In this document: positions 10,504 through 61,617 of the stretch, piece after piece
How positions within the stretch are numbered: position 1 is the first letter of the stretch
Layout of the letters: each line of letters starts with the position of its first letter
Virus record (IMG/VR): IMGVR_UViG_3300037054_000148
Coordinates: 124,001-188,000 of that record
Length of the DNA stretch: 64,000 bases
Source: a virus
Strand: one strand, 5' to 3'
Translations under genes and position numbers: made by a program
Notes under the pieces: model-generated
What the model was told of the DNA's origin: nothing
Seen by the model: only the letters and a program-made list of their open reading frames with translations
Databases searched by the model: none

Positions 10504-11193
10504 TTGGGCGCACGAAGAATCTATAAGAAACAACCGTACGAAACTGGTATTTACCACATAAAAAACAGTGTGACTGGTAAATACTACATCGGTTCCTCAA
10601 TTGAATTATCGAAACGAATGGGGAGGCACCTGTGGGGACTGCGAAAAGGTATTCATCATTCACTCAAGCTCCAGAGGTCTTTCGATAAGCACGGTGAAGT
10701 TGCGTTCGAATTCAAGATCCTGCTGGTGTGCGAGGCCAAGGATGTCGAGATGTTCGAGACCAGAGCCATCCATGCCTATGACTCTTACCAGAATGGCTAC
10801 AACGTAGCCCCAGAGGCCAAGGGAGGGTTCATGCGGGGCCGCAAGTGGCCCGAGAGGACTAAGGAAGCTAGAGTCGAAGCTATGCGAGGGCGCACTCACA
10901 CAGAAGAGTCAAAAGCACGAATTCGAGAAGGACTAGCCAAACTGACTGAAGAAGAGAAGCAGGCCCATCGAGATTGTATTGGGGCCGCTAATCGTAAACC
11001 TAAAAGTGAGAAAGGCAAGAAAGCCATCATCCAGGGATTGAAGAAACGCTATGAGTCCGCTAAGGCGCATGAACAGACGGCAGAGGCCACAAGAAATTCT
11101 TGGGCTGCAAGGCGGGAAAAATACGGCCCGACTGGACGAAAACCGAAAAATAGTGCAGTTGTAAGTTGTTCTGAGGAGGTGATTTACGGCTGA
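10504..11193 (+). CDS. GIY-YIG homing endonuclease
   Basis: The gene starts at TTG, 6 bases after AAGGAG. The 229-residue product has the nuclease signature ETGIYHIKN then KYYIGSS, the RMGRH basic segment, a central KHGEVAFEF strand and an ETRAIHAYDS segment carrying the metal-binding glutamate. The C-terminal two thirds hold NUMOD3-like motifs (MRGRKWPERTKEARVEAM, MRGRTHTEESKARI) followed by a lysine-rich helical region. The last codons of the gene contain the GGAGGTGA ribosome site of the next gene, so it is inserted tightly into that leader. It is a selfish element by family knowledge. The cleavage site is unknown. Confidence 0.92.
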   Translation: MGARRIYKKQPYETGIYHIKNSVTGKYYIGSSIELSKRMGRHLWGLRKGIHHSLKLQRSFDKHGEVAFEFKILLVCEAKDVEMFETRAIHAYDSYQNGYNVAPEAKGGFMRGRKWPERTKEARVEAMRGRTHTEESKARIREGLAKLTEEEKQAHRDCIGAANRKPKSEKGKKAIIQGLKKRYESAKAHEQTAEATRNSWAARREKYGPTGRKPKNSAVVSCSEEVIYG

Positions 11194-18640: not shown

Positions 18641-20494
18641 GTGAGTAGCAGACAGAGATTTAGCCAAAAGTCAAGGGAGTCGGTGCTGGGTGGGTTGGTT
18701 GATACTCACATCACAGACAGTACAACTCTGCTTAATGCCCTGGAATTCATTGAATCTCCTAGTGGGCTGAATATAACCTTATACCCAGTTCAGCGTGTTT
18801 TGATCAAATTGATATTTGGCATTCCGATGGACTGGGACGAACGGGAAGTGCCCGTTTACGACCAATTCTGTGAAAAGCTCCTCTTTACTTTTACAGAACG
18901 TGAATATATCCGTTATGTATTCGAGAAGGGTCGGATCAACATCCCCACCTGGGAGGATGCCAACCCGCTGGGATATAATGAGATTGACATGATTGTCGGT
19001 CGCCGTGGTGGTAAGAGCGTTGTGGTCGCCGCAGTTGCTGCCTACAAGCTCTACCTCTTGTTAAGCCATCGAGACCCCCAGGAATACTACGGCTTGGTCC
19101 CCGGTTCCCCGATTGATCTGACTATGATGGCCCAGGATTCCAAGGGGTCTAGTCGGCTTTATGATCAGCTTAAAGAGGATATCAACCGAGCCCCCTTCTT
19201 CGCCCCTTACATTAAATCCATGACAGGTGAGGAGATGACCTTCATCTCTGAATCTGACCGTGGTAAGCGAGAACTCACCCCCTCCATCAAAGCCGCCGCT
19301 TACCCCTGCACCACTAATGCCGTGCGTGGACCCAGCAGTTATTTCCTAGCCTTGGACGAGTTTGCTCACTATCGGCAGCAGATCGGTTCCACCTCTGATG
19401 AGATGTATTCCGCCGCCGCCCCCGCTACTATGCAATTCAAGGGTGGAGGAACCCGTGACGGTCTGAGGGAAAGTATGATTTTTATCATAACTTCCCCAGT
19501 AAATAAAATTGGTAAGTACTATACTTTGTTCAGGGATGCTTTATTGGAAGGCCCTTCTAGTCCTGTCCTAGCCTTCCAATGCTCAACCGCAGAGATGAAC
19601 CCTCGCTCCGACACTCCGTTCTTGAAGAAGGAGTACAAGGATAATCCTGAAAAGTTCAAGGCTGAGTATGGTGGGGAGTTTCTGGATGCATCTGAGACCT
19701 ATGTTAAAGGTTTAACGATTGATGAGTGTGTTGACCAAGATCGGGGTAATGTGACTATCCTCACTTCTTCTATGATAGGCCACAATTACTTCTGGGGTCT
19801 TGATTTGGGTATGAAACATGACGCTACGGCCCTTGCGGTCTGCCACTGGGAGGGGGGTCAGAACAAGGCATGGCTCGTATATGATTACATTGATAGGTTA
19901 ATGGTGGGCCTGGGTAAATATAAAGATGTTGCTGAACTTCCACTAGATGATGTGCTGGACTGGCTAAAGGACGCACATGCAATGCTCCCCTGCTTCCAGG
20001 GTGTGACTGACCAGTATGGTGGTTCCCTTCTGGTTCAGCTACTGAATGCAAATCAGGTAACTGGGATTGAGTTGCTTCATTTGACCTCTGGTGTTAACTC
20101 GCAAATGTACCTCACACTTAAAACTCTCATGGAGAATCGTCAGGTAAAGTTCCCTAATGTGTCTGCATTTGTCTTAGAAATGAAGCTCCTGGAAGCCTCT
20201 TTCATTAATAAATATCAGGTTATCGTTAAGGCTCCGACCGAAAAAGATGCTCATGATGATATGGCAGATGCGGCAGCTCTTGCAGCCTATAAAGCTCAGC
20301 TATGGGCCATAGGTGACGGTAAGCGTGTCATGTGGGACATCATGCAAGGGGTTCCGCAAAACATGATCCCCGGCACTATCAGGGGTGGGTGGGATATGAA
20401 TGGCTCCCTTGCCCATCTCAGATCCTACGAACGACAGCTTCAACATCAATTAAATCCCTATGGTGCGGTTCAAAACCCATGGAGAAGACATTAG
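18641..20494 (+). CDS. terL: Terminase large subunit
   Basis: The 617-residue packaging motor pumps DNA into the procapsid through the portal and cuts concatemers. The ATPase domain has a Walker A-like VGRRGGKSVV (about residues 124-133), Walker B YFLALDEFAHY (about 233-243) and a downstream coupling motif (FIITSPVNK). The RuvC-like nuclease domain has the first acidic strand DLGMKHDATALAV, a middle acid in TDQYGG, and the last acids in DAHDDMADAAALA. It starts at GTG, 5 bases after AAGG. The usual length of such proteins is 500-700 residues, so it appears complete and without intein. No small terminase was recognised next to it. Confidence 0.95.
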   Translation: MSSRQRFSQKSRESVLGGLVDTHITDSTTLLNALEFIESPSGLNITLYPVQRVLIKLIFGIPMDWDEREVPVYDQFCEKLLFTFTEREYIRYVFEKGRINIPTWEDANPLGYNEIDMIVGRRGGKSVVVAAVAAYKLYLLLSHRDPQEYYGLVPGSPIDLTMMAQDSKGSSRLYDQLKEDINRAPFFAPYIKSMTGEEMTFISESDRGKRELTPSIKAAAYPCTTNAVRGPSSYFLALDEFAHYRQQIGSTSDEMYSAAAPATMQFKGGGTRDGLRESMIFIITSPVNKIGKYYTLFRDALLEGPSSPVLAFQCSTAEMNPRSDTPFLKKEYKDNPEKFKAEYGGEFLDASETYVKGLTIDECVDQDRGNVTILTSSMIGHNYFWGLDLGMKHDATALAVCHWEGGQNKAWLVYDYIDRLMVGLGKYKDVAELPLDDVLDWLKDAHAMLPCFQGVTDQYGGSLLVQLLNANQVTGIELLHLTSGVNSQMYLTLKTLMENRQVKFPNVSAFVLEMKLLEASFINKYQVIVKAPTEKDAHDDMADAAALAAYKAQLWAIGDGKRVMWDIMQGVPQNMIPGTIRGGWDMNGSLAHLRSYERQLQHQLNPYGAVQNPWRRH

Positions 20495-22668: not shown

Positions 22669-22783
22669 AAGTGCGGATGACCTGGGACCACGGCTCCCAT
22701 GCCTCACGGCGGGTCATCTCCTGGGTAGCGGGTGGGGTTAAACTCCCCGTCTGCGGAAAGGTTCGAATCCTTTCGCACCTACA
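22669..22783 (+). tRNA. tRNA-like element of unusual length
   Basis: The 3' end is convincingly tRNA-like: AAAGG-TTCGAAT-CCTTT forms a T arm with the invariant loop, followed by CGCACCT, which pairs with AAGTGCG at 22669 except for one position. An anticodon-like hairpin (GGGG-TTAAACT-CCCC) precedes the T arm. However, the element is about 113 nt, and the middle holds an extra stem (GATGACC/GGTCATC) and TGGGA/TCCCA, so I cannot draw a normal D arm. It may be an aberrant tRNA, a tRNA with an insertion, or a tRNA mimic. CCA is not encoded. Its 3' end overlaps the last codons of the opposing endonuclease gene. Confidence 0.45.
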
Positions 22784-23675
22784 GTCTTCCCCGCGCAAAA
22801 CCTTCAGCTACTTCAGAGGGTTTTGCGCGAAGTTCTATGACCCCATTGTTATACCAATAAACCCCTAGAAGGGGACTCTCACCATCCGGTGTGCTAAACA
22901 CTTTCTTTCGACCTTTCAGTGCTTTTGACTTGGCTTTATTTTGTTTTTCTTTTTCCTCATCAGTCAAGCTAGCCCAGTAGGCTCTCTGTTTAGCTGATGC
23001 TATTTCGCTTCGTAGTTCTCGCTGCTCTTCTGTCATTGCAGCTTCGCGTCTAGCTGCTACATCTCTTCCGATTTGAGTGAGACGTTCTTTATCCTCCTCT
23101 GTTAGACTAACTCTATAGTTCTTTATACCTTCTCGTTGCGCTTGAACAGTCTTGGTGTAGAGAGCTTCCTGTTCTTCCTGAGTTAACTGTCTCTTCCATG
23201 TCTTCAATCGCTCTGCTCCAGCTACCTGTAAAGCAGTCCGCTTCTTTGAATTCTTTTCCCAGAACTCAACTGTTCCTTGCAGTCTTTCCTTTTTCTCCTC
23301 ATCTGAGCATTCTTTCCAATAATTTACCATCTGGGCCGAATGTAAAGCTCTCGTTTCATCGGTGCAATTCTTCAAGGGGTTCACGGCAATGGGGCAGACG
23401 TTATATCCAATCTCTCTGTCGTATGATTTTAACAAATCCAGATACCGCTGCTCTTTTTGATCAAGTTCTTCCACTGAGCATTCACATAAAACCTCAAATG
23501 TAAACTTTTCAATTCCATATTTTTTGACAGCCGCCAGCAGATGCCGATTGTGGTGGGTGCCTTTTCTGAGTTTGCTCAGGTGTGACCAGAGCCGCCCTTG
23601 AAGATTGATGGATTGACCCACATAGACCTTGCCGTTCACAGTATTAGTTATTAGATAGATACCACTTTTCCGCAT
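22779..23675 (-). CDS. GIY-YIG homing endonuclease (minus strand)
   Basis: The 298-residue product begins with the nuclease signature SGIYLITNTVNGKVYVGQS, followed by the basic LQGRLWSHL segment, the KKYGIEKFTFEVL strand and QKEQRYLDLLKS with the catalytic glutamate. The rest is long charged helices rich in Lys, Glu and Arg (LTDEEKEKQNKAKSKALKGRKK) and a C-terminal domain (GVYWYNNGVIELRAKPSEV). It lies opposite to its neighbours, between a tRNA-like element and the primase zinc-finger gene. Its 3' end overlaps the tRNA-like 3' end by 5 bases, suggesting insertion next to that element. It is a selfish gene by family. Confidence 0.92.
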   Translation of the reverse strand: MRKSGIYLITNTVNGKVYVGQSINLQGRLWSHLSKLRKGTHHNRHLLAAVKKYGIEKFTFEVLCECSVEELDQKEQRYLDLLKSYDREIGYNVCPIAVNPLKNCTDETRALHSAQMVNYWKECSDEEKKERLQGTVEFWEKNSKKRTALQVAGAERLKTWKRQLTQEEQEALYTKTVQAQREGIKNYRVSLTEEDKERLTQIGRDVAARREAAMTEEQRELRSEIASAKQRAYWASLTDEEKEKQNKAKSKALKGRKKVFSTPDGESPLLGVYWYNNGVIELRAKPSEVAEGFARGRL

Positions 23676-37013: not shown

Positions 37014-38015
37014 ATGAAACTTCTGGTTAAAACGATCTACGGTTCTAAACTGTTCGGCACCGCCCTCCCCACTTCTGATACGGACCTAAAAGCCGTGTTC
37101 GTATGCGACATGGAGGGGTTGGTTTTCAATAAAACCGATGCGGAGAACACGGTGGAGGGAAAGGGAAGCCAGAAGGTCGAGTTCGAAGCACACCACATTT
37201 CCAACTTTTGCCGTATGCTCAAGCAGGGGCAGACTCTGGCCTACAGCATGTTGTTCACGCCAAAGGATTTGGTGGTCAGCACCTCTGATGCATGGGAGGA
37301 GTTGGTGGAGAACAAGGCTCGGCTGGTGAGCAAGAATCTTCGGCCCTTTGTCGGCTATGCTCGTTCCCAGGCTCAGAAATACAGTCTGAAGGGGGAGCGT
37401 CTGGCCACTCTTGATCATTTCATTGAGGACATTAAGATGTTCCTGGATGAAAAAGAAGTCACCCCCAATGGTCGTCTTTATGAATCCGCTTTTTGTGGGC
37501 TCATGGAGCATTACAAGGATGCTGAGGGTGCTAGACTTTGGACTGAGCACACAGCCAACATGGACGTTCGGCATATCGAGATCTGTGGCAAGAGTTTCGG
37601 TGAGACTACCCCTCTGAAGTTGTGGGTAACACCCCTGATGGAGCTTCGCAGTCGCTACGGGGGCCGCTCCCAACAGGCCAAAGAGGACAAGGGCATTGAT
37701 TTGAAGGCCATGTATCATGCGGTTCGGATCACAAGTGAGATGAACGAAATCCTCACCACTGGTAGTCTCACATACCCTAGGCCAGAGGCCCCACTGCTCA
37801 TGGATATTCGCAATGGCAAGTTGACGAATCGTGAGGTTGGTGATATCATCGACCGTCTCATCTGTACGGGTGACGAGTTGTTTGAAACCTCCACTCTTCG
37901 GGATAAACCTGATGCTGAGTGGCTGGATGACTGGCAGCTTCGCACTCAAGGTGACGCAGCCTTCTGGGCTTGGAGTAATCGAAATGCCATGGTGAGGCCC
38001 AATGCACGTTCCTGA
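37014..38015 (+). CDS. RlaP-type nucleotidyltransferase
   Basis: The 333-residue protein begins with the nucleotidyltransferase signature GSKLFGTALPTSDTDLKAVF: the GS loop plus the DxD pair that binds the metal. This matches the RlaP family of pol-beta-type transferases often found near RNA ligases. A later acid-containing strand (EFEAHHISNFCRML) and the helical KNLRPFVGYARSQAQKY follow the family layout. No RNA ligase is seen in this window. The substrate may be a nucleic-acid end or a protein. Phage members are thought to take part in nucleic-acid repair. Its end overlaps the next small gene. Confidence 0.75.
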   Translation: MKLLVKTIYGSKLFGTALPTSDTDLKAVFVCDMEGLVFNKTDAENTVEGKGSQKVEFEAHHISNFCRMLKQGQTLAYSMLFTPKDLVVSTSDAWEELVENKARLVSKNLRPFVGYARSQAQKYSLKGERLATLDHFIEDIKMFLDEKEVTPNGRLYESAFCGLMEHYKDAEGARLWTEHTANMDVRHIEICGKSFGETTPLKLWVTPLMELRSRYGGRSQQAKEDKGIDLKAMYHAVRITSEMNEILTTGSLTYPRPEAPLLMDIRNGKLTNREVGDIIDRLICTGDELFETSTLRDKPDAEWLDDWQLRTQGDAAFWAWSNRNAMVRPNARS

Positions 38016-41794: not shown

Positions 41795-42872
41795 TATCAA
41801 AAAGCTCAAAGGACTCAAGTGGTATATCCTTGAAGTCAGATCAGAGCGAACAGTAGAGAACGTAATTCGTCGTGTTGGTAAGACCATGCCTACTATATTT
41901 AAGGACGGAGGGTCTTGTGAGGTGTTTGTTCCGATAGAGGACCGAGATCTCAATTTGTTTAGCCTATCCACCTCCTCCTATGTGTTTCTCCGTTCTGATC
42001 GAAAGAAAGAATTACAGAAGTTCAAAGGGGTCACAGGTGTGGTAGGGATCCTCTGTGAGGGGGAGCAGCAGCGGATTGATAAGGCCCTGATGGTGGAGGA
42101 TGACTACGTTCAGGAATTAATCAAGATGACAGAGGAGAAGTTTATGAAGAGCCCAGAGTCCATACAGGTCGGCTCCTTTGTTCGTATTCTGGATGGTTTG
42201 GATAAAGGGTTCTGTGGGCATGTATCTCGCATAGATCGAGGCTACGCCCTGATCCGGGTTGAGCTTAAAACTAGACAGATGTTCATTGATACTCCTCTGC
42301 ACAATCTCAAAGATTTGAGTTTTGTGCCACCCAACTCAAGAGTGTTTTACTACTCTGACTTAGTGGACGAGTATGTGAAGGATTACAGTGATGAGGCCAT
42401 CATGACCCTAGCTAAGGATTTGGAGTTTGTGATGGAGGTGACTGAACCCCTCCCCTCTGATGAACCAGATGAAAAGAAAGTCAAGTATGGTCGGCAGAAG
42501 ACCGTTACGGCCATGACAAAGAAATTGATATTCAGCGGCATCAAAGACCCAAAGGTCATAATTAAAGAAGCATTGGCAGCCATTGAATCAAGTGACATCA
42601 AAAAACCGAAGAGTGCGTTTATCTTCTATTCAATCCTTAAACAGGCCATCATGGAGACCCTGTTCAAAGATGATAGTAGGATCAAAACTTATAAAGATGT
42701 GGTCAAGTATTACGGGGATTCTTACCGTTTTTCTCCAAAAATGATCGCTGAATTGGATGAACATTCGATCCTATCTCCAAAAAGCGAGACCTCGGATAAA
42801 TCGAATCAGCACTCTACAGTAATAAAAATCAAACTGACCAAGGAGTCAAAATGTCAAACACCACCGGAATAG
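41775..42872 (+). CDS. NusG-like transcription factor with C-terminal extension
   Basis: An upstream in-frame ATG (41724) is inside the previous gene; the GTG at 41775 gives the better start (365 residues). Residues about 12-115 look like an NGN domain: LKWYILEVRSERTVENVIRR, the CEVFVPIEDRD strand, and FKGVTGVVGIL. Next is a KOW motif (QVGSFVRILDGLDKGFCGHV). Host NusG is about 180 residues, so about 190 are added at the end, helical and Lys-rich. Such a factor would bind RNA polymerase and change pausing or termination, as RfaH- and NusG-type proteins do. It overlaps both neighbours (clamp-loader and actin-like genes). Identification rests on the NGN-KOW order. Confidence 0.7.
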   Translation: MILQYGDIKKLKGLKWYILEVRSERTVENVIRRVGKTMPTIFKDGGSCEVFVPIEDRDLNLFSLSTSSYVFLRSDRKKELQKFKGVTGVVGILCEGEQQRIDKALMVEDDYVQELIKMTEEKFMKSPESIQVGSFVRILDGLDKGFCGHVSRIDRGYALIRVELKTRQMFIDTPLHNLKDLSFVPPNSRVFYYSDLVDEYVKDYSDEAIMTLAKDLEFVMEVTEPLPSDEPDEKKVKYGRQKTVTAMTKKLIFSGIKDPKVIIKEALAAIESSDIKKPKSAFIFYSILKQAIMETLFKDDSRIKTYKDVVKYYGDSYRFSPKMIAELDEHSILSPKSETSDKSNQHSTVIKIKLTKESKCQTPPE

Positions 42873-43933
42873 GATTAGATATTGGTACCGCTTACATCGT
42901 CTCTGCCAAATCTGACATCGACAATAAAGTCAAAATTAGCTCGGTAAGGGACTGCTTTCTTGCTCTCCCTCTGGATCAATCTCCCGCATTGGAGATTGCG
43001 GGAGTGGAGTTCATTGAGGGTGCAGAGGAGGTCTATGTGGTCGGTAACGATGCGATCAATTTGATTGGTGTCCTCGGAGGGGAGCTACGCCGTCCTCTCA
43101 GCAAGGGCTTTATCAGTCCCAAGGAAGAAGATGGGAAGGAGATACTTCAACTCATCCTTCAGCAGATCCTTGGAAAGCCCCAGGTTCCGGGGGAGCTTGT
43201 GGCTTTCTCAGTACCTGGGCCTATTTTTGACGTTGAATCCACGGTCGCCCCTAAACCCAGCCATGATTCCTCTCTGACCTTCCATACCAGCTTCTTCAAG
43301 AATCTGATCACCGATCTGGGTTATACGGCCCGTCCGGTCAACGAAGCGGTAGCAGTCTGCTTCAATGAAACCGTGGTCCCCAAGAACCCATCTGAAACCC
43401 CCCTAACCGGACTCTCAATTTCGTTTGGTGCTGGCACTACAAATTTGGCCTTAACATTCAAATCTATTCCTGTTAAGTGCTTTGCTCTTCCCTTCGGCGG
43501 AGATTATGTAGACCAGATGGCAGCCAAGGCCACTGATTCCACACTTTCTCATGTAACTTTGTTGAAAGAACGTGGTGTTGATTTGATGACTGGACTCGTA
43601 ACAACCAAGGGTGAGTTTGACGATACCCAGACTGAACGTCAGGCCGAAGCAATTGCAGTCGCCTATGCAGACCTAATCACTAAATTGGTCAACGCCACCA
43701 ATAAATTCTTCAGCTTCAATGAGAATCGTGTGGAAATCCCTGATACTATTCCGGTCATCCTGGCGGGTGGGACTACTAAGGCCCCCAATTTCATGAAACT
43801 TTTCAATAAAATTTTCATGGAGAATCTTGATGTGAGATTCAAAGTTTCAGAGGCAAGGCTGTCCGCAACTCCTTTGGATGCTACGGCCAGTGGCTGCTTG
43901 AACTTCGTCCGGATCCTTCAGAAAAGAGGCTAA
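42851..43933 (+). CDS. Actin-like ATPase (ParM/MreB-type fold)
   Basis: The 360-residue protein shows the sequence marks of the actin/Hsp70 superfamily: phosphate-1 motif GIGLDIGTAYIVSA near residue 6, phosphate-2 motif LSISFGAGTTNLALTF near 188, and the adenosine motif IPVILAGGTTKAPNFMKLF near 300. It starts after AAGGAG, overlapping the NusG-like gene by 22 bases. Phage and plasmid relatives form filaments that move DNA or organise a membrane-bound structure. The next gene encodes a membrane-anchored coiled-coil protein, which might be its partner. The exact subfamily cannot be set without alignment. Confidence 0.7.
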   Translation: MSNTTGIGLDIGTAYIVSAKSDIDNKVKISSVRDCFLALPLDQSPALEIAGVEFIEGAEEVYVVGNDAINLIGVLGGELRRPLSKGFISPKEEDGKEILQLILQQILGKPQVPGELVAFSVPGPIFDVESTVAPKPSHDSSLTFHTSFFKNLITDLGYTARPVNEAVAVCFNETVVPKNPSETPLTGLSISFGAGTTNLALTFKSIPVKCFALPFGGDYVDQMAAKATDSTLSHVTLLKERGVDLMTGLVTTKGEFDDTQTERQAEAIAVAYADLITKLVNATNKFFSFNENRVEIPDTIPVILAGGTTKAPNFMKLFNKIFMENLDVRFKVSEARLSATPLDATASGCLNFVRILQKRG

Positions 43934-47967: not shown

Positions 47968-49911
47968 GTGGACGAACAGTGCCCACTGGTTACACCATAT
48001 ACGGATAATGAAGGCATCCCAGTAAAGATGCTGGAGTTGCTGTATCGGATCCGAAAGCATGATCCGGAGGACGGGCCTATTCCGGTCCCAGTCCCCTCAT
48101 GCTTTCGAGAATTTTCCCTCACGGCGCATAAACCAGTAAAACTTAAAAACTTCCAGACCCAAATGACGGCCCATCTGATCAAGATGCATCGGTTTATCAA
48201 TGGGGAGGGGACGGGCCTGGGTAAGACCCTGGAGAGCATCGCTGCGGCTGCCTATCTGCATGAGAAGCACGGCTGCAAAATCTTGGTCTTGGGCACTAAA
48301 TCAACTACATATCAGTGGAAGACAGAGGGATTTGACGAGTTCACCACACTCAGGACTCATGTGGCCACCGACACTTACAAGGGGCTGAAGGGGTCGCAAG
48401 CCAGACTCGCTCAGATCACAGATTTTCTTAAAAATGATATGTGTGATGTGATGATATGCAAATATTCCTCTCTCATCGGCAGAACCAAATCTCTAGAAGG
48501 TGAATTTGACGAACAGGGCTACCCAATTGAAAAAGGTCAACGAGAAGAGTTAAGCCAGGAAGTGAAGGATCTGATTCAGATTGTCGAACCTTACGGGGAG
48601 AAACTGATTCTGATTTGCGATGAGGCTCAGAAATTTAAATCCACCACTACCCAGGTTCGCAAAATGATTTTGGAGTTGCAGAGCCGAGTGGGCCGAGTGT
48701 GGGCCATGACTGCTACGGTTATCCAGAATAGTTTGGAAGAATTCTATAGTATCGCTAGCGCGATTGGGATCCGCCCCTTTGGGGGGATGGCTAAGTTCAG
48801 AGATCGCTTCTGCAAGTATCAGATGTCATATATCGGCAACGGGAGGCAGAAGCCTTCGTTAGTGGGTTACCGGAATGTCAAAGAATTCAAGATTGGGATG
48901 CGCCCCTTTTACTTGGGTCGGTCCTGTGCTCAGGTAAAAGAGCCTCTACCTAAGCTCACCACTCTCTATCACCCGATTGATCTGGACGCCAAACAGGTCA
49001 AAATGTTGGAAGACATCCGAAGTAAAAAGCTGGTGCTCCCGCCCTCTATTCACAAAATAGCCGGGGAAATCGTAGAGAAAGAGCGGGATGCGGATAACCG
49101 GATGACTATGTTGTCGGTTATGCAGTTAATTTCAAATCATCCCTGCCTTATTGACCCCACTGACAAAAAAGCCTTCTTCTCTAAGTCCCTTAGCCCGAAG
49201 GAGGAGGCCCTGCTTGAGCTTCTAGACGGAGAGCTTGCGGGGGAGAAGGTCTTAGTCTTCACAAAATCCAGAAAGTGGATTGACCGATTTGAGCAGCTTT
49301 GTAAGGATGGCCATTTTACTAATCGTAAGTTCCTCCGGATCACTGGGGCTGAAGACGAAAAGCAACGGGACACCAACAAACGTCTGTTCCAAACTGACCC
49401 CGACTATAATCTGTTGTTCATCAACACTGCAATTATGGAGGGGGCAAACCTTCAACAATCTGCCCATATGATTCTCTTGGATGCTCCGTGGGGTTGGGGG
49501 GCACTGATTCAATTGGTGGGCCGGATGGTCCGGATGTCAAGTCCTCACTCGGTTTGTACCTTGCATGTGGTATGTGCTAAAGGCACGATTGATGAATATG
49601 TGATCGATACGCTGCGAGGCAAGAAAGGGGTGTTTGACATCATTCTTGGAGAGTCCCATGCGGCGGGACTGCTGGACACCGGGAATGACCTCGATCTTTC
49701 TAGCGGTATGGAAACCCTGAATGATGACAAGGAGTTTAGGGAACTTTTGACCGCTCATGTCAAAACTACAAAAATGGGCGACTATTTGAAAGGCAAAATC
49801 CTCGCAGAAGCAATAGGGGAGGGGGAAGATTATGTAATGAGCTTCGAGAAGGAGCCCAAAGAGAGTAATAAGAACAAGAAGAAATCATTCGAGTTTTCTG
49901 AGAAATGGTGA
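47968..49911 (+). CDS. SNF2-type superfamily 2 helicase/ATPase
   Basis: The GTG at 47968 follows AAGGTGAG with good spacing and is preferred over the GTG at 47956. The 647-residue protein has motif I GEGTGLGKTLES, motif II ICDEAQKFKS (DEAQ), motif III AMTATVIQN, and in the second RecA-like domain motif V/VI-like sequences with VLVFTKSRKW, MEGANLQQS and LIQLVGRMVRM. This is the SNF2/UvsW-like order. Such phage enzymes remodel DNA and replication forks, as T4 UvsW does. The C-terminal 100 residues are helical and acidic/basic. It lies before the recombination block, which fits this role. Confidence 0.85.
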   Translation: MDEQCPLVTPYTDNEGIPVKMLELLYRIRKHDPEDGPIPVPVPSCFREFSLTAHKPVKLKNFQTQMTAHLIKMHRFINGEGTGLGKTLESIAAAAYLHEKHGCKILVLGTKSTTYQWKTEGFDEFTTLRTHVATDTYKGLKGSQARLAQITDFLKNDMCDVMICKYSSLIGRTKSLEGEFDEQGYPIEKGQREELSQEVKDLIQIVEPYGEKLILICDEAQKFKSTTTQVRKMILELQSRVGRVWAMTATVIQNSLEEFYSIASAIGIRPFGGMAKFRDRFCKYQMSYIGNGRQKPSLVGYRNVKEFKIGMRPFYLGRSCAQVKEPLPKLTTLYHPIDLDAKQVKMLEDIRSKKLVLPPSIHKIAGEIVEKERDADNRMTMLSVMQLISNHPCLIDPTDKKAFFSKSLSPKEEALLELLDGELAGEKVLVFTKSRKWIDRFEQLCKDGHFTNRKFLRITGAEDEKQRDTNKRLFQTDPDYNLLFINTAIMEGANLQQSAHMILLDAPWGWGALIQLVGRMVRMSSPHSVCTLHVVCAKGTIDEYVIDTLRGKKGVFDIILGESHAAGLLDTGNDLDLSSGMETLNDDKEFRELLTAHVKTTKMGDYLKGKILAEAIGEGEDYVMSFEKEPKESNKNKKKSFEFSEKW

Positions 49912-49914
49912 TAA

Positions 49915-50715
49915 ATGGACCCAAATGAAGTTTCGGAATGCCCTCGTTGCAAAGGCTCCGGATTCATAAGACTTGCTAACGGGATGCTGGACTTCTGCAC
50001 TTGTTTTTTCACGAGGCAGCTAGCATTACAACTAGGCACTCTGACTACCTTCCCTGAGATCAATGTGCCATCCAAGCTCTCTCCGTTCCTGCTCAAACGA
50101 AGAGGGAACGGGCTTATAGAAGTAGACTCCTTGGATGGGAGCATGGAGGCACTCTCGGTCCATTTGCGAAAGGCTCTCACAGACGAATTTTATGACGCGA
50201 TCAATAAGGGTCGTAAGCCTATTACGTGGAGAGAGACTACAATGGTGGAGGTGACAGATATCAGATTTGGTAATATGCCGTACGCGGAGAAATTCGCCCT
50301 CTTGACTGCTCCTCAGCTTCTCATTATCAGAGCCGCCATGTGGCCCCCTTATGTTCAGCACTATGACAATGTTAGGATGTTGATCGGGGACCGAATGGGG
50401 AAGAAGAATCTAACATGGCTGGTCAACCCTAACTTTTCAAAAATGAAGGATGATAAGGCTATCCCCTTGTCATTTAAAGATTTTATTAAGGATATTATGG
50501 GGTTGAACAGGTTTGTTCATATAACCAGGGAAGAATCAAAAGGGGAGAGCGGAGCAAAAGTGAAAAAAACAACTGAAATGGGTATTCACCAGGGGATCGG
50601 GGTAGCGGGTATTAATCAAAAGATGCTGACCGATGCAAACGATCCGGTTCAGACCAGAATAGCCAAGATGGAGAAGACCGTTGACCAATATGACCGTAAC
50701 AGCAGTGATGGTTAG
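49915..50715 (+). CDS. Hypothetical protein with a CxxCxGxG zinc motif
   Basis: The 266-residue protein starts with ECPRCKGSGFIRL, the CxxCxGxG motif known from DnaJ-type zinc centres, and a second pair in FCTCFF about 20 residues on, so it may bind zinc. A helical middle follows (MEALSVHLRKALTDEFY) and a basic, lysine-rich end (KMKDDKAIPLSFKDFIKDIM). It is next to the helicase and may be a loading or partner protein. No match is recognised. Confidence 0.55.
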   Translation: MDPNEVSECPRCKGSGFIRLANGMLDFCTCFFTRQLALQLGTLTTFPEINVPSKLSPFLLKRRGNGLIEVDSLDGSMEALSVHLRKALTDEFYDAINKGRKPITWRETTMVEVTDIRFGNMPYAEKFALLTAPQLLIIRAAMWPPYVQHYDNVRMLIGDRMGKKNLTWLVNPNFSKMKDDKAIPLSFKDFIKDIMGLNRFVHITREESKGESGAKVKKTTEMGIHQGIGVAGINQKMLTDANDPVQTRIAKMEKTVDQYDRNSSDG

Positions 50716-51022
50716 CCTTAAAGTTGGGGATGTGGACTACGGACGAGGATCTGAACGATTCGTCTCGCTACGTGGGGAGATCCCTGAAGGCCAGGAAGGT
50801 ATCCCTATCAATGACTACGATGAGATCTTGAAAAGGGTTTTAGATCTTCAATTAGAGGCATGGGAAGCAGTGCAGGGCAGCCGGTATGTGGGAGGGGTCG
50901 TGAAGGCTCCGTTGTTCAAGGATTTGATCGCCATAGGCCGAAAGCGCACCGAACGAGTGAAACAATTTTTGACTGAAAGAGGCGAAGTAGATGTTACCGA
51001 TATTGAATCAACTGAAAGCTGA
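50690..51022 (+). CDS. Small hypothetical protein
   Basis: The ATG at 50690 is the first in-frame start; a later ATG (50708) is also possible. The 110-residue protein has an N-terminal beta region (SLKVGDVDYGRGSERFVSLRG) and a helical C terminus with basic residues (LFKDLIAIGRKRTERVKQFL). It overlaps both neighbours, a sign of coupling. No family is recognised. Confidence 0.5.
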   Translation: MTVTAVMVSLKVGDVDYGRGSERFVSLRGEIPEGQEGIPINDYDEILKRVLDLQLEAWEAVQGSRYVGGVVKAPLFKDLIAIGRKRTERVKQFLTERGEVDVTDIESTES

Positions 51023-52451
51023 GACAGTCCTGGAGGGAACGGGGCTACTTGAGAAGGTGGAAAAACTCCGCTCAACCTTCACTTATAAGTCGTCTGAAGA
51101 GGCTTACTCTTTTGATGACTATTACTTGAGGCTGCTGAAAGAGGCAGATGGGGTTGAACAGATCACCCTCCTGTCCTCCGTAGCTCCTGGCACGGCTCAG
51201 TCTTATTTGGTGCAGCTTACCCAATCTCTGCAATTGGTCACTGATAAAATTGAATCTATCCACAGTCGAGCTTTATTTTTCCTGGGGAAGGTCCGTGCGG
51301 CTATCCACAATAAGGATGGGCTGGAAGCTGCATTCACCGTATGGTACCAGATTGCCATCACCGATGTGCTAAAGGCACATGACCTCAAGTTCACAGCCTC
51401 TGTCTGTAAGGCTTTGGCCGAGTCTGAGTTCACTCGTCTGATTGGTGAAGAGGTGGTCCTGGAAGGCATGGAGGATGCGATCAGTATGCTGATCGAACAT
51501 CTGAAAAGTGCTAAGAAATTGGCCATGGAAAAGTATAAACTCGGCACCGAACAGGCCAATGCCTCTCTCCTACGTATGCCACCCAGTCAGGGCTTAACGG
51601 AGAATGAAGACCCATACCCTCTGCTAAAGCAACGATACGGCTCCCTCACAGAGGAGCCCCAGAAGCCTAAATACGATGATGACGATGAGTCCGAAAACGG
51701 ACTCCCTGCTGAAGAGGGTGACCCTAACTACGTGGAAAGACGCGAGTTTGCTGGACACCCTTTGAGTGACAAGGTAATCAAATTCATTCAGGGCACCGTC
51801 GAACAACCGGAAGTCGGTGTGGTGCTGGGCGGAGAACTTGAAGAAGTGGCGAAGAAGTGGCGTGAAGAGCAGTTGGACGCAGCCCAAGAAGCTGAGGACA
51901 AAGCACTCCTTCAGATGCTAGTTTCTAAGGAACTCACTCCCTTGGTGGAGATGCTGGCTCAGCTTCCAGATACCGGCTTCACTCATAGCGAAGATTCAAA
52001 TGCGGATGCAGAATATGTAGCTGCTCATCCAGAGACCCGGACACCATTGGTGGTGAAGCGGCGTGATTTTGATGAGGCTCTAGAAGTTCAAATAGAGCCC
52101 TCTCCAAACTTGGCCCCCGGCCCCGCCTTTGATGTTGATAAATTTGATGAGGTGCCCTCGGCTCTACCCGCAGATAAAATCATTCACGATCCCTTTGTTG
52201 GAGACGTAAAGGTGGTTCAGGGTGAGGATGGCCCCGCGCTCGTAAAAGAAAAGGGAGAGAAGGCTATTCAGCCCCAGCCTAAGCCAAAAACCAAGCCCAA
52301 ATACGATGATGAAGATGATGAAGATGGTATCTCTGTGCCCTCTTCTACCCCGGAGTCCCTAGCCCCGGAACTAGTAAGTCCAGTAGCACCAGCGGAAGTT
52401 CAACCGGTCAAAAAAGATCGAAGAAAGATCACTTTTGACGACTCATTCTGA
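50991..52451 (+). CDS. Large hypothetical protein, helical with acidic linkers
   Basis: The 486-residue protein has a helical N-terminal 200 residues (LLEKVEKLRSTFTYKSSEEA, FFLGKVRAAIHNKDG), then an acidic linker beginning KPKYDDDDESENG, a second helical domain (LEEVAKKWREEQLDAAQEAEDKALL), another similar linker (KPKYDDEDDEDG) and the end KKDRRKITFDDSF. The KPKYDD segment resembles the start of the next protein (NKPKFDEDEELD), a likely repeat of the same linear motif. Its place before the SSB-like gene hints at a replication-fork partner. No domain is recognised. Confidence 0.55.
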   Translation: MLPILNQLKAETVLEGTGLLEKVEKLRSTFTYKSSEEAYSFDDYYLRLLKEADGVEQITLLSSVAPGTAQSYLVQLTQSLQLVTDKIESIHSRALFFLGKVRAAIHNKDGLEAAFTVWYQIAITDVLKAHDLKFTASVCKALAESEFTRLIGEEVVLEGMEDAISMLIEHLKSAKKLAMEKYKLGTEQANASLLRMPPSQGLTENEDPYPLLKQRYGSLTEEPQKPKYDDDDESENGLPAEEGDPNYVERREFAGHPLSDKVIKFIQGTVEQPEVGVVLGGELEEVAKKWREEQLDAAQEAEDKALLQMLVSKELTPLVEMLAQLPDTGFTHSEDSNADAEYVAAHPETRTPLVVKRRDFDEALEVQIEPSPNLAPGPAFDVDKFDEVPSALPADKIIHDPFVGDVKVVQGEDGPALVKEKGEKAIQPQPKPKTKPKYDDEDDEDGISVPSSTPESLAPELVSPVAPAEVQPVKKDRRKITFDDSF

Positions 52452-55409: not shown

Positions 55410-55969
55410 TTATCGACTCCAACAACCTCCTCCTCAAGACCTTTTGGTTCCTGGCTCTTTTGGGTTCCACCCTCTTCATGGCTTCAAATCTCGCTTACAG
55501 CCCTGCCGCCTCTCAGTACTGGATGTGGGCCGGAGGGGTTATCCTGGGGGCCTATTTGACTGGGTTCCTCGGTGTGCTAACCTATACTGTGGCCCATTCC
55601 GGAGGGGTCGATCAAGCTCTTCGAAAGATGGGCACACTGGAGAAGTTCGTAGACGCTCTAGCTGAGCCATTCCCATGGGCCAATAAGGCGTTCTGGTTCA
55701 CCATTTTCTACTACGCCTCCCTCCTTATTGGCTGGCCCTTATTGCACGGAGCCTTGCTTTGCATCTCAGTCTCTCTCCTTGCTACCACCGTCCTATGCGT
55801 CCTTCGCAATCTTCACCTCATCAGAGCCTTCCTTCGTCTCTCGATCAAGGGGGTAATGATTGAGAGTGCGGTCAAGGATTTAATCTCTCACATTATGGCC
55901 TCTGAAGCAGAGAAAGAATGTGATAAAGAAGGCTGCTCCTGCAAGACCCCACCTGAAGAGGAATCATGA
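55406..55969 (+). CDS. Polytopic membrane protein
   Basis: The 187-residue protein has about four hydrophobic segments: FWFLALLGSTLFMASNLAY, WMWAGGVILGAYLTGFLGV, FWFTIFYYASLLIGWPLLH and CISVSLLATTVLCVL. The C-terminal tail is acidic and contains a few Cys (CDKEGCSCKT). It overlaps both RecA and the SbcC-like gene by ATGA. A membrane protein inside a recombination cluster is unusual. It might anchor recombination structures or be unrelated. No family is recognised. Confidence 0.65.
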   Translation: MIIDSNNLLLKTFWFLALLGSTLFMASNLAYSPAASQYWMWAGGVILGAYLTGFLGVLTYTVAHSGGVDQALRKMGTLEKFVDALAEPFPWANKAFWFTIFYYASLLIGWPLLHGALLCISVSLLATTVLCVLRNLHLIRAFLRLSIKGVMIESAVKDLISHIMASEAEKECDKEGCSCKTPPEEES

Positions 55970-57198
55970 AATTTCGGCTTGTAGGCAGGGATTTCCAGTC
56001 TTGGAAACACTTCGATTTGAATGTCAACGGATTCACCATCATCGTTGGCAGTTCAAATCGAGGGAAGTCCGCGATTGTCAGATCCCTGCGTGGTATTCTG
56101 AGGAACCAAGTACAAGATGCTTTCATCCGACATGGCCAGAAAGCTGTTGAGCTTAAGCTCGAAGTAGAAAATGGCCCCACGGCTGTCCTGACCAGAGGGA
56201 AGACTACCACCTACAAAGTCAATGGGGAGGACTTCGCTAAGCTGAATGGAGATGTGCCCCAACTGATCAAAGAACTAAAGCTGGGCGAAATCACCATTGG
56301 TTCTGCTAAGTTGGACCCCACATTCGCAGGGCAGTTTGACAGCCAGTTCATGATGAACCTCTCCCCCAGTGAGTTAAACTCTGTGTTCGGTCTGTTCAGC
56401 AATACGGAGCAATTGAACCAAGGTAAAAAGGCCATCAATCTAAATAACGCAGAGATCAACTCTCAGGCTAAGATGCTGGCTCTGGAGGTTCAAGCCGGTC
56501 ATACGAAAATTGCTGAGATTAGCTCCGTGCTAGGGGCATTTGAATCCCTAAAGCCCAGGCACGATGACACGCGACAGAAAATTACCACGGCTCAAACCGT
56601 ACAAACTTTGTTGAATCAAAGAATTGTGCAATGGAGCCGGGTTGTAACTCTGGAAAGCATAAATCGTATCTCTCCCCCGTCTACCCAAAAAGTGACGAAG
56701 GCCCACAAAGTCCACACGCTCCTATCTCACAAGATGCAGACTTCAAGTCGTGTCAGAGTCCTTCGCCAATCCTCCCAGGTAGCCCCACCTTCAACCGAAC
56801 TGGTTTCCCGCTACCTCCGCCTAGGGAAAAGCCTCAGACATGTCCAGAGGCTCCAGGAGCATGTTGCAATCGGCTCTGAGGTGATGGTTGCGGCCAGACC
56901 GATCAAATGGGGGCTGCTGGTTCGACAATGGAGTCTGTGGAAGGAATATTTTCCTCTTCGAAAGCGGCTCGAAGCAGCCCCATCCGTAGAGCGGATGGAT
57001 GTTAGTAAACCGGAGCATGATCTTATGGTTCTCAGGCTTCTAGCTGCATGGCCTAAGATGCGCACTCTCTTGGCTTCGCGCAAGGAGGACGTATCCGTAG
57101 TTAATCGTCAACTAGCCGACCTCCACAATCAGCTTCATGAACTTACCAAAGACACCATCTCGTGCCCGAAATGCGGGTATCAATTCATCAAGGAGTAA
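55966..57198 (+). CDS. N-terminal half of an SbcC/Rad50-type ATPase with CxxC hook
   Basis: The 410-residue protein opens with the ATPase head (KFRLVGRDFQSWKHFDLNV) and Walker A IVGSSNRGKSAIVRSL (about residues 26-41). A Q-loop-like region with FAGQFDSQFMM follows, then a long coiled coil (about 150-390). It ends with a zinc-hook pair SCPKCGYQFIKE. The second head half (signature, Walker B) is missing. It is encoded at 35891. Splitting at the hook gives two chains that must join. Overlap with the previous gene by ATGA and a following coiled-coil gene support one module with the SbcD-like nuclease at 58928. Confidence 0.85.
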   Translation: MKFRLVGRDFQSWKHFDLNVNGFTIIVGSSNRGKSAIVRSLRGILRNQVQDAFIRHGQKAVELKLEVENGPTAVLTRGKTTTYKVNGEDFAKLNGDVPQLIKELKLGEITIGSAKLDPTFAGQFDSQFMMNLSPSELNSVFGLFSNTEQLNQGKKAINLNNAEINSQAKMLALEVQAGHTKIAEISSVLGAFESLKPRHDDTRQKITTAQTVQTLLNQRIVQWSRVVTLESINRISPPSTQKVTKAHKVHTLLSHKMQTSSRVRVLRQSSQVAPPSTELVSRYLRLGKSLRHVQRLQEHVAIGSEVMVAARPIKWGLLVRQWSLWKEYFPLRKRLEAAPSVERMDVSKPEHDLMVLRLLAAWPKMRTLLASRKEDVSVVNRQLADLHNQLHELTKDTISCPKCGYQFIKE

Positions 57199-57200
57199 TC

Positions 57201-57482
57201 GTGGCCATAGCCGAAGAAATCCAGGATCTGAACAAACGTATCTCTGGTTTGGAGAAGAAGCAGGAAGAGGTCAAGCGGACCCTAGCCGTTGAAGAGCACA
57301 AACTATCAGAACTCCAGGCACAACTCAAGGACGAGGGGTATGACGTTTCCAAAATGTCTGATGCAGAGATTGAAGCTCTGATGGATAAACTAGCAGAGAG
57401 CATCGAAACTGAGATGGAAAGACTCAAGGGAATCATCGAAGAGGCCGAAAAGCAATATGAGAAGTTCCAAGAGCTTCGATAA
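57201..57482 (+). CDS. Small coiled-coil protein
   Basis: The GTG at 57201 follows AAGGAG directly after the previous stop, so the earlier in-frame GTG at 57162 is unlikely. The 93-residue protein is almost entirely coiled coil (IQDLNKRISGLEKKQEEVKR, LAESIETEMERLKGIIEEAE) with no cysteine. It may complete or support the split SbcC coil, or be an unrelated helper. Position after the hook-bearing half favours the first. Confidence 0.6.
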   Translation: MAIAEEIQDLNKRISGLEKKQEEVKRTLAVEEHKLSELQAQLKDEGYDVSKMSDAEIEALMDKLAESIETEMERLKGIIEEAEKQYEKFQELR

Positions 57483-57683: not shown

Positions 57684-58310
57684 ATGGAGTTTAAACTTGA
57701 GCCCCAAGCCCTGATCCCTTGGAAGCTAGTGAATAGTAGTCAGTTGCACCAGGATATGGTTCTGGTAGACACAGATTACATGGCCTTGATGTACGATGAA
57801 GGGTTTGATTGGTGCGATGTCTCACTGCCCAACGATAAAGCACTTAAAGTAGTGCGGCTGTTAGAGACCCCGAACCTCGGTCAGAGGTTAGCATTTTTGT
57901 TCAATTGGATCCAGTCGGAGACCCTTAAATCCGAGTGTCTCCGAAATCATATCGGGGCAGTCGTTACGGATGAGGATTTACGTATCCTCGGATCTGGCTT
58001 TAACCGCAAACCCTCATATTTTACCCATTGTGATACGATGGGGTGCGATCCGGAAAGGATTTGTCGTGCCACCTTTCAGCCAGAATTGATGGCACTGAGC
58101 CAGCTAGAGATGGGTGTCAAACCCTTTGCCATGTTTTCTAGTGTGGCACCAAATTTAAGTAGCATTAATCTGTGTGAGCTACATGGAGTATCAATTATTG
58201 TATACTTGGCTTCCCGAAAATTTTCTAAACTAGACACACCAGTTATCAGTTTTAAGACGGTGAAGTCCGGTATTATTTTTCTGAAAGCCACCATGGGAGC
58301 AGCAGAATGA
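57684..58310 (+). CDS. dCMP/cytidine deaminase-like protein lacking zinc ligands
   Basis: The 208-residue protein is clearly built like a dCMP deaminase in its second half: SECLRNHIGAVVTDEDLRIL, SGFNRKPSYFTHCD and a GC...CRA spacing, then the helix with the active-site motif. The usual HAE is changed to QPE (TFQPELMAL), and the later PCxxC is changed to PNLSS (APNLSSINLCE). The proton-shuttle glutamate stays, but the histidine and both cysteines that bind zinc are gone, so it should not deaminate. It may be a regulator or a binding protein, or act in a complex. An N-terminal 75-residue region has no match. GAGGAG precedes the start. Confidence 0.7.
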   Translation: MEFKLEPQALIPWKLVNSSQLHQDMVLVDTDYMALMYDEGFDWCDVSLPNDKALKVVRLLETPNLGQRLAFLFNWIQSETLKSECLRNHIGAVVTDEDLRILGSGFNRKPSYFTHCDTMGCDPERICRATFQPELMALSQLEMGVKPFAMFSSVAPNLSSINLCELHGVSIIVYLASRKFSKLDTPVISFKTVKSGIIFLKATMGAAE

Positions 58311-58588
58311 AACTTCTTATCGACCTACGCAGGAAACGAGTCAAAATTGAGTTTGAAGCCACTCAAGATGAGATGGGTCAGCCTGAGTCTCAGGTCAATG
58401 TCGAGGTCAAGACCAATAAGCGGCAGAACAAGCAGATTCTGGACCAGATCCCCGATATCACAGGTAAGCTGCTGTATTATCTGACTATGACTAATGTTGT
58501 CCTTCTTGACTCGACGTATGAGCAGATGGAACGGATGATTGCCAAGGCTTTAGAAAGCGAAAAGTGCAATGACAAAAGACCCGTTTGA
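58307..58588 (+). CDS. Small hypothetical protein
   Basis: The 93-residue protein overlaps the previous stop by ATGA. It is charged, with a strand-rich start (KLLIDLRRKRVKIEFEAT) and a helical end (YEQMERMIAKALES). No family is recognised. It overlaps the hemerythrin-like gene by 20 bases, so the three genes from 57684 to 58931 form one coupled unit. Confidence 0.55.
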   Translation: MKLLIDLRRKRVKIEFEATQDEMGQPESQVNVEVKTNKRQNKQILDQIPDITGKLLYYLTMTNVVLLDSTYEQMERMIAKALESEKCNDKRPV

Positions 58589-58931
58589 GCAAGCGCACAC
58601 CCACATACTAGAACTCTTGGATCATCTTCACGTAGGAGCCAACTCTCCGGTTCTTTTAGGTGAGTTAATTGACCATTTGAGTAATCATTTCATTGACGAG
58701 GAACGTTTGATGAAGGTCTGCAACTACCCTGAACGGGAAAGGCACATCAACGAGCACCTTCTCATCCAGGATTTCATTCTTCCGCTTCTTCCTCGTCTCG
58801 TGTCGGGTAATAACTTACAGGAGGAACTTGATCTGATACGGGAGAGAATGGCTCTTCATATCTCTGCCGATGACGCTAAGCTCATCCAATACGCCAACAC
58901 CTACACCCCGGAGATCCTCGAAGCCCTATGA
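58569..58931 (+). CDS. Hemerythrin-like di-iron protein
   Basis: The 120-residue protein carries the ligand pattern of bacterial hemerythrins with matching spacing: an N-terminal His (H10 or H12), HxxxE (H40/E44 in NHFIDEERL), HxxxH (H59/H63 in RHINEHLL) and HxxxxD (H97/D102 in LHISADDAKL). E44 to H59 is 15 residues, as in known bacteriohemerythrins. The chain is predicted as four helices and the length is typical. Such proteins bind O2 or act in iron or redox sensing. In a phage this is rare. It lies between a small gene and the SbcD-like nuclease, overlapping both. The role is unknown: oxygen or NO sensing, or metal handling, are possibilities. Confidence 0.8.
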   Translation: MTKDPFEQAHTHILELLDHLHVGANSPVLLGELIDHLSNHFIDEERLMKVCNYPERERHINEHLLIQDFILPLLPRLVSGNNLQEELDLIRERMALHISADDAKLIQYANTYTPEILEAL

Positions 58932-59944
58932 AATTGAAAAGGATAGATGATGAAGTAAATATTGTGTGGATGACAGATATCCATCTTTCAGATCGCGCTC
59001 CAGGGAGGCGTTCAGACGCTTATAGGGAGCAGATTTTTGATAAGATCCGTCAGGTCCGTAAGATATGTGAGGATAACCACGCGATTTGCTTGGTTGGGGG
59101 GGATGTATTCCACATCAAGACTCCCAAATCCCCGGCCAACAGCCTATCCCTGATCCGAGAGGCCATCGAGATATTCAGCGAATTCCCAGGTGGTTGCGTG
59201 TACGGCTGCGTGGGTAATCATGACATCCAGTTTGACCGCATGGACACACTCCCACACCAACCCTTGGGTATTCTGATGGAGGCAGGGGTATACCGGTCCT
59301 TGAACGAGGAATCTCTGATCATCGAGACACGGGAGGAAGCGTTGTTAGACCCCTCTTTCACCATCCAGGTGGATGCGTGGGACTATGCGGAGCCGGGTGA
59401 CACTTATGAGGCTCTGAAACGGTCTGGGGCTCGTCCAGAGGGTATTGACTATCGCCTTGGAGTCGTCCATGCATCTGGGTGCAGCGGGGACACGAAGGTA
59501 TTTGGGGATCAAGTTAGCCTCATTGGCTACAATCAACTTCGAAAGTTGGATTATGACATCCTGCTTTGGGGGCATGATCACACCAGGACTGAGACGGAAC
59601 GCTGCGGCAATATCACCCACATCAACCTGGGGAGTATCGCCCGTGCGGCCCTTTCCCAGGATGAAGCAGATCGACCCGTAAGTGCGGCGCTGCTCAGATT
59701 CACCTCTGAAGGGGCTAAGATAAAAGAAATCCCACTCAACGTGGTGCCGCTTGAACAAGCATTTCGAACAGAGGACAAGCGAGTAATAGATGTGAAGGAT
59801 AGCACTAGCATGAAGGCGTTTTTCTCAGAATTATCAGAGTCGGTGGATGAGATTGAATCGTCAGACCCCATCACTGTGATTGAAGCCCTGTGCAAGAACG
59901 ACCCCACGTTATGTGCTCATGTAAAGGAGAAGTGCAACCTATGA
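58928..59944 (+). CDS. sbcD: SbcD/Mre11-type nuclease
   Basis: The 338-residue metallophosphoesterase has the full motif series: WMTDIHLSD (D and H), LVGGDVFHI, CVGNHDIQF, GVVHASG and LLWGHDHTRT. Two Mn ions are held by these residues. It is the nuclease partner of Rad50/SbcC proteins and processes DNA ends and hairpins. Its partner halves are at 35891 and 55966. The C-terminal 80 residues form the capping and partner-binding part. It overlaps the hemerythrin gene by ATGA and the next gene by the same. Identification is firm from motifs. Confidence 0.9.
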   Translation: MKLKRIDDEVNIVWMTDIHLSDRAPGRRSDAYREQIFDKIRQVRKICEDNHAICLVGGDVFHIKTPKSPANSLSLIREAIEIFSEFPGGCVYGCVGNHDIQFDRMDTLPHQPLGILMEAGVYRSLNEESLIIETREEALLDPSFTIQVDAWDYAEPGDTYEALKRSGARPEGIDYRLGVVHASGCSGDTKVFGDQVSLIGYNQLRKLDYDILLWGHDHTRTETERCGNITHINLGSIARAALSQDEADRPVSAALLRFTSEGAKIKEIPLNVVPLEQAFRTEDKRVIDVKDSTSMKAFFSELSESVDEIESSDPITVIEALCKNDPTLCAHVKEKCNL

Positions 59945-60762: not shown

Positions 60763-60997
60763 TGTCAAAGATAAGCTCCGTGCGCCAGCCAAGGGTGGGT
60801 GGAAAGAAACGATTCAGGGGAAGCCTGATGTCCAGCAATGCGTAATTGAAATCATAGGTGATACCCTAGGACAAGGCATCGTGGATGCGAAAGGTAAACC
60901 CCCTGACAATTTGGTGATCTTCTTGGACCGAATCCTCCAGAAGAAACAACATATAAACGATCTGGATTTGCTTTTGATTTTGAATGAGGTGGAATAA
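60746..60997 (+). CDS. Small hypothetical protein
   Basis: The 83-residue protein starts at GTG within the previous gene and ends one base into the ThyX start. It has a basic N terminus (ADVKDKLRAPAKGGWKET) and a helical end (NDLDLLLILNEVE). No family is recognised. Overlap on both sides supports it as part of the nucleotide/recombination operon. Confidence 0.5.
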   Translation: MSLRADVKDKLRAPAKGGWKETIQGKPDVQQCVIEIIGDTLGQGIVDAKGKPPDNLVIFLDRILQKKQHINDLDLLLILNEVE

Positions 60998-61617
60998 TGA
61001 AAATAGTGCAGCCAAGTGTAACCCTCTTACACCATACTCCCGAAGCGGAGAAAGTCATTGAACGTGCGGGGAGGGTCTGCTGGAAGTCGGAGGAGAAGAT
61101 TACTGAAGATTCTCACGTGGCCTTTATCAAAATGATTATGGACCCAAGTCGGAAGCATGAATCTGTATTGGAACACGCTTCCGCTGGATTTAGCATCGTA
61201 TGTGACCGTGGGATCAGTCATGAGATCGTTAGGCACCGCATCGCTTCATATTCTCAGGCTTCGACTCGTTACTGCTGCTATGCGAAAGACAAATTCGGTG
61301 GGGAGATTTCCGTCATCTGTCCAAGTGGCATAGAAGAATGCACGAGTGAGCATATTGCGTGGTACGAGGGCTGTTATGAGGCTGAAAAAGCCTATCTAAA
61401 GCTCATTGAACTGAAGGTTTCCCCTCAGAATGCGCGTTCGGTCCTCCCCACATGCCTCGCAACAGAAATCGTCTGGACGGCAAATCTTCGAGAGTGGATG
61501 CATATCCTCTCCCTCAGATCGGCAAAAGCTGCCCATCCCGATATCCGAATTATCATGGAAATGATTAAACCACACCTAGTAAGTATCGCTCCGACAATAT
61601 TTGCAGATTACGTCTAG
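60997..61617 (+). CDS. thyX: FAD-dependent thymidylate synthase (ThyX)
   Basis: The 206-residue enzyme makes dTMP from dUMP using methylene-tetrahydrofolate and FAD. It has the ThyX signature RHRIASYSQASTRY (pattern RHRxxSyxxxSxRY) at about residues 79-92, and earlier the EHASAGFSIVCDRGISHEIV segment that holds FAD. The C-terminal NLREWMHILSLRSAKAAHPDIR matches the family end. Length is typical. The gene begins inside the previous stop (TAATG). It supplies dTMP for phage DNA, as in many phages without ThyA. Confidence 0.95.
   Translation: MKIVQPSVTLLHHTPEAEKVIERAGRVCWKSEEKITEDSHVAFIKMIMDPSRKHESVLEHASAGFSIVCDRGISHEIVRHRIASYSQASTRYCCYAKDKFGGEISVICPSGIEECTSEHIAWYEGCYEAEKAYLKLIELKVSPQNARSVLPTCLATEIVWTANLREWMHILSLRSAKAAHPDIRIIMEMIKPHLVSIAPTIFADYV

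Follow-up and report, generated by a model that had tools for sequence, protein, structure and literature searches.

Hemerythrins are small iron proteins that bind oxygen in some worms and bacteria. Among free-standing bacteriohemerythrins, only that of Methylococcus has a well-described role, which is to scavenge or deliver O2 (PMC12607906); integrated elements of Thaumarchaeota are listed as having a hemerythrin family, arCOG01471 (PMC6563490). In open-access papers, a scope that takes in few subscription papers and no bioRxiv preprints, we found no description of a phage hemerythrin. Here, we analyzed a 64-kb stretch (hereafter, the window) of a 313,597-bp (313.6-kb) virus record, in which a putative bacteriohemerythrin gene lies directly upstream of the gene for an SbcD-like nuclease. 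The nearest cultured relative found, Tunturiibacter phage Tunturi_5 (PP885688), is a myovirus that infects an acidobacterium and has a genome of 309 kb (PMC11924767). It carries the same succession of genes, namely, UvsX, SbcC-like exonuclease, small gene and SbcD, with 42% identity to the window phage in UvsX and 39% in SbcD; Acidobacteriota are only suggested as hosts of the window phage, through this distant relative. In Tunturi_5, however, a different gene (gp178) precedes SbcD, and no hemerythrin is present anywhere in the record, the only complete genome among the relatives. The possibility that gp178 is a divergent hemerythrin was considered and rejected: the His motifs are absent, and searches of the record with Pfam and with the phage model detected no hemerythrin.

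The analyzed record is a very large (jumbo) phage, and helicase and clamp-loader genes accompany the phage markers in the window. The features used below are as follows (positions in the window; strand where assigned):

18641-20494: terminase large subunit, phage marker
24210-27677: family A DNA polymerase (PolA), phage marker
28183-30498: portal, phage marker
54165-55409, plus strand: UvsX/RecA-like recombinase (phrog_97, 5e-44; Pfam RecA), used to find relatives
55966-57198, plus strand: SbcC-like exonuclease, 410 aa (phrog_16465 exonuclease, 4e-13), which has a P-loop at its N-terminus and a CPKCG pair at its C-terminus
58307-58588, plus strand: orphan gene, 93 aa, just upstream of the hemerythrin and overlapping its start by 20 bases
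58569-58931, plus strand: predicted bacteriohemerythrin, 120 aa (Pfam, NCBIfam, PDB profile, AlphaFold and Foldseek; ligands invariant in near relatives; dN/dS 0.05-0.11)
58928-59944, plus strand: SbcD/Mre11-type metallophosphoesterase, 338 aa (Pfam Metallophos, 32.6 bits, cut-off 21.5; phrog_100, SbcD-like)
60997-61617, plus strand: ThyX, flavin-dependent thymidylate synthase (Pfam Thy1, 180 bits; phrog_85)

The SbcD-like protein retains all of its motifs (D17xH, GD59, GNHD99, H181 and GHDH218). The SbcC-like protein ends at its CPKCG pair, and a 106-aa ORF that resembles a coiled coil comes next (the two spanning 55966-57482); no C-terminal ATPase half of SbcC was seen adjoining the 410-aa gene. 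Positions 57684-58310 encode a dCMP-deaminase-like protein that has seemingly lost its catalytic residues; where the relative on contig L023 has HAE, the window protein has QPE, and PCLDC is replaced by PNLSS. Elsewhere in the window, we observed an actin-like protein (42851-43933; Pfam Volactin, 165 bits against a cut-off of 35) and three ORFs with N-termini that, by eye only, resemble GIY-YIG homing endonucleases (1634-2188, minus strand; 10504-11193, plus strand; 22779-23675, minus strand). No tRNA was found in the window.

The hemerythrin ORF starts with ATG, stops with TGA and encodes a single domain. An initial annotation, made from the sequence, had described a hemerythrin-like protein with a full set of di-iron ligands, and comparisons with Pfam, NCBIfam, PDB profiles and predicted folds all returned the same family. 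The motifs were as that annotation had given them: an N-terminal His (H10), H40xxxE44, H59xxxH63 and H97xxxxD102, with E44 and H59 spaced 15 residues apart. The ligand set is thus complete (H10, H40, E44, H59, H63, H97 and D102, that is, five His, one Glu and one Asp at family spacings), and it aligns with the ligands of solved hemerythrins. When the ligand pattern was written as a regular expression with loose spacings, it matched only this ORF among the 161 six-frame segments of at least 90 aa in the window, compared with 0.0075 matching segments per window in residue-shuffled controls. The protein scored above the cut-off of the Pfam Hemerythrin model (PF01814; 28.6 against 25.3 bits) and matched the PDB profiles of DcrH (2e-15), 4xpx (1e-13) and myohemerythrin (3e-13). 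The NCBIfam models for bacteriohemerythrin (NF033749; E=3e-11, 43.5 against 84 bits) and for the hemerythrin domain (TIGR02481; 42.0 against 51.75 bits, with a significant E-value) gave scores under their curated cut-offs, which are naming thresholds rather than structural criteria; because of these scores, we regard the protein as a divergent member of the family.

The structure check that the initial annotation had proposed was run, and no fold contrary to a four-helix bundle was obtained. The AlphaFold2 model, built from a nine-row alignment of the phage copies and one bacterial relative, was mostly helical (pLDDT 92.7, pTM 0.83), and its ten best Foldseek matches in the PDB were all hemerythrins, with DcrH-Hr at the top (TM 0.78). 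The Foldseek E-values were weak (0.04-0.17), yet the probability was 1.00, and the profile search provides independent agreement at the sequence level. The predicted helical bundle would hold a di-iron centre through its five His, one Glu and one Asp. Taken together, sequence and model identify the ORF as a true bacteriohemerythrin of one domain, which has diverged within a known family and occurs here in a new setting.

The phage collections searched contained no credible hemerythrin at the sensitivity used, at which very divergent copies would be missed. Searches of 50,697 phage records by tblastn with three phage copies and one bacterial relative gave no match. With DcrH as the query, the same records yielded two contigs of apparently mislabelled bacterial assemblies and MT837110, a 7.7-kb unverified scaffold. 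The two contigs, CAKLQH020000030.1 and CAKLQF020000028.1, filed under 'Acinetobacter phage MD-2021a', were rejected as bacterial chromosome, the hemerythrin genes being surrounded by argB, fur, pilT and algC, and probably represent mislabelled assemblies. PHROGs contained no match to the window hemerythrin and only weak matches to the other copies, in families of unknown function; the viral structure library contained no convincing hemerythrin match. The rarity noted in the initial annotation is therefore borne out in these three collections.

Relatives of the gene were found among metagenomic phages. Near copies are present in two IMG/VR contigs (92% and 78% identical), in the gene order of the window. 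More distant relative contigs were found by scans with SbcD and UvsX, and in L010 and L011 (53% SbcD identity) as well as in L014 (56%) a hemerythrin is likewise flanked by a small gene and SbcD; a scan of genomes yielded only one weak bacterial relative. Overall, 7 of the 12 related phages carry a hemerythrin (L010 and L011 were counted as one phage, as were L020, L021 and L024), and several of the remaining ones are fragments in which absence is unproven, Tunturi_5 being the only complete one. The hemerythrin tree included 29 bacterial rows, that is, 27 domains from Pseudomonadota genomes, the only genomes sampled, plus the relative L005 and DcrH-Hr. In this tree, the five rows from beside SbcD group together in a single clade (support 97/93), and the phage hemerythrins of L029, L030 and L033, located away from SbcD, cluster separately and less firmly (88/92). 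The L033 gene (37-528, minus strand; record G007) is a second hemerythrin in a phage that also has the SbcD-adjacent copy, and it adjoins a nucleotidyltransferase-like gene resembling the one at 37014-38015 of the window (RlaP). The SbcD tree does not place the window group and L010/L014 as sister groups, and the simplest reading is therefore a single old acquisition with a later loss in L020, the root being unsure. Thus, the hemerythrin was probably acquired once, at the SbcD site, by an ancestor of this jumbo-phage group and then kept by selection. The gene is under purifying selection: its dN/dS of 0.05-0.11 compares with 0.02-0.03 for SbcD and UvsX.

What might such a protein do for a phage? 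O2 binding is the most likely activity of a free-standing bacteriohemerythrin that has all of its ligands, and the presence of the Methylococcus protein (4xpx) among the best structural matches also counts for this function. We tentatively favour, at somewhat short of even chances, a role in which the phage hemerythrin would be loaded with iron, would reversibly bind O2 at the predicted di-iron centre and would benefit the infected cell by buffering or scavenging O2 in the cytosol when O2 is low or fluctuates. Indirect support comes from nucleotide metabolism. The only ribonucleotide reductase (RNR) match in the record is to the class II, B12-dependent model (432 bits against a cut-off of 400), and neither RNR R2 nor NrdD was matched in the record; the dNTP synthesis of the phage therefore need not use O2, which fits hosts that live at low or variable O2 and to which buffering or scavenging of O2 could be useful. 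The class II gene (49374-52043 of G000; 880-4590 of L048, outside the window) is interrupted by an intein, and its relative in G007 lacks the intein. Two candidate clients of the hemerythrin were rejected, namely, a class I RNR as a user of O2 or iron, the RNR being class II with no R2 match, and a phage radical SAM enzyme in need of protection, no radical SAM match having been found in the record. That no O2-sensitive phage enzyme was found for the hemerythrin to guard counts against O2 buffering, as do the many other roles of bacteriohemerythrins (PMC12607906).

The main rival to O2 binding is the handling of peroxide, NO or iron, which we consider rather unlikely: the di-iron centre would carry out peroxide or NO chemistry, or store iron for Fe-S repair, and so protect the cell or the phage DNA from oxidative or nitrosative damage. 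Precedents include Fe-S protection in Campylobacter and detoxification by hemerythrin-like proteins (PMC12607906) and the role of YtfE, a di-iron protein, under nitrosative stress (PMC9052748), and the position of the gene in a DNA recombination block would suit DNA protection. However, YtfE-type proteins belong to a different branch, whereas the nearest solved relatives of the phage protein are O2-binding hemerythrins, and no linked stress gene was identified.

The initial annotation had also proposed translational coupling to the SbcD/Mre11-type nuclease and a link to DNA-end processing. The coupling was based solely on gene overlap, and the 4-base overlap (ATGA, 58928-58931) is indeed present in the window but is replaced by a 2-base gap in L014. 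The functional link is weakly supported. SbcD lacks an adjacent hemerythrin in Tunturi_5, L012, L013, L020, L022 and L023, and in three phages the hemerythrin is located away from SbcD, so that the two genes do not regularly co-occur as would an accessory factor and SbcCD. Regulation of SbcD by the hemerythrin is possible but, given that the genes are separable, not favoured; adjacency itself is weak evidence because phage genes are densely packed. The more constant partner is the orphan gene (93-100 aa), which lies just upstream of every SbcD-adjacent hemerythrin in the loci examined, in three lineages. A profile of this gene from the window lineage detected counterparts in L010 (2e-4) and L014 (5e-3) and in none of the other loci, and a five-row profile gave only a chance-level match (0.05) in L023. 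The 93-aa protein has no confident predicted fold and no match among solved structures. In this small sample of three lineages, the hemerythrin at the SbcD site and the orphan gene appear to travel together, and SbcD apparently needs neither.

It is unlikely that the hemerythrin and the orphan protein form an O2, NO or iron sensor whose target would be the neighbouring SbcCD-like nuclease or a host component. The conserved order of the orphan gene, hemerythrin and SbcD, the overlap of the genes and the sensor function of hemerythrin domains in bacteria (PMC12607906) would fit such a sensor; nevertheless, six relatives, including one with a complete genome, have SbcD without either gene, the hemerythrins of the second lineage are located elsewhere, and the phage protein has no fused output domain. 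The more elaborate version, in which the two genes constitute a jumbo-phage module that senses O2, NO or iron and, by way of the orphan protein, controls phage DNA-end processing or host takeover, is less probable still; if true, the module would be a virus-encoded oxygen sensor.

We also find it improbable that the bundle has been kept as a structural or binding module with an incidental metal site. Other helical bundles are common in phages, and in L010 (5646-6014) and L011 an Asn replaces the ligand His40; the same Asn codon occurs in two metagenomes, and a read error is therefore unlikely. This substitution argues against the full centre being strictly required in these phages, and hence also weighs against O2 binding there. 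Nevertheless, all seven ligands are kept in 7 of the 8 phage copies, across about 25-30% identity. In the nine-row alignment, the columns identical in all rows are H10, E44, E45, M48, P54, H59, H63, H97 and D102, and H40 is kept in 8 of the 9, L010 being the exception. Finally, bacterial contamination or a recent chance pick-up of a gene that the phage does not use, although bacterial contigs do get filed as phage (as with the Acinetobacter case above), is hardly credible, being contradicted by the terminase, portal and PolA genes in the window, the same gene block in other contigs and the low dN/dS.

The maintenance of a hemerythrin beside a DNA-repair gene in related viruses suggests that the virus may handle oxygen or reactive gases while it infects its host. 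If phages supply an O2-binding or iron protein, oxygen or reactive gases would limit phage replication in some habitats, and oxygen handling would join the host functions that phages carry. Because the protein recurs within one jumbo-phage group, as two hemerythrin lineages, the idea can be put to the test. Among mobile elements, the closest parallel is with the integrated elements of Thaumarchaeota, which also carry a hemerythrin but are archaeal and integrated rather than tailed jumbo phages, and are likened here by description alone. Among proteins, the best match by both structure and profile is DcrH-Hr (PDB 2avk and 2awc), a domain of the Desulfovibrio chemotaxis protein DcrH, in which all seven ligand positions align with those of the phage protein; the latter, however, is free-standing rather than part of a chemotaxis receptor, has a shorter N-terminus and is only about 20% identical. 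In domain organization, the phage protein is more like the bacteriohemerythrin of Methylococcus capsulatus, likewise a single domain that stands by itself (TM 0.67; 25% identical where the two align), from which it differs in length (120 against about 131 aa) and in lacking most of the N-terminal arm that precedes the first ligand His (H10).
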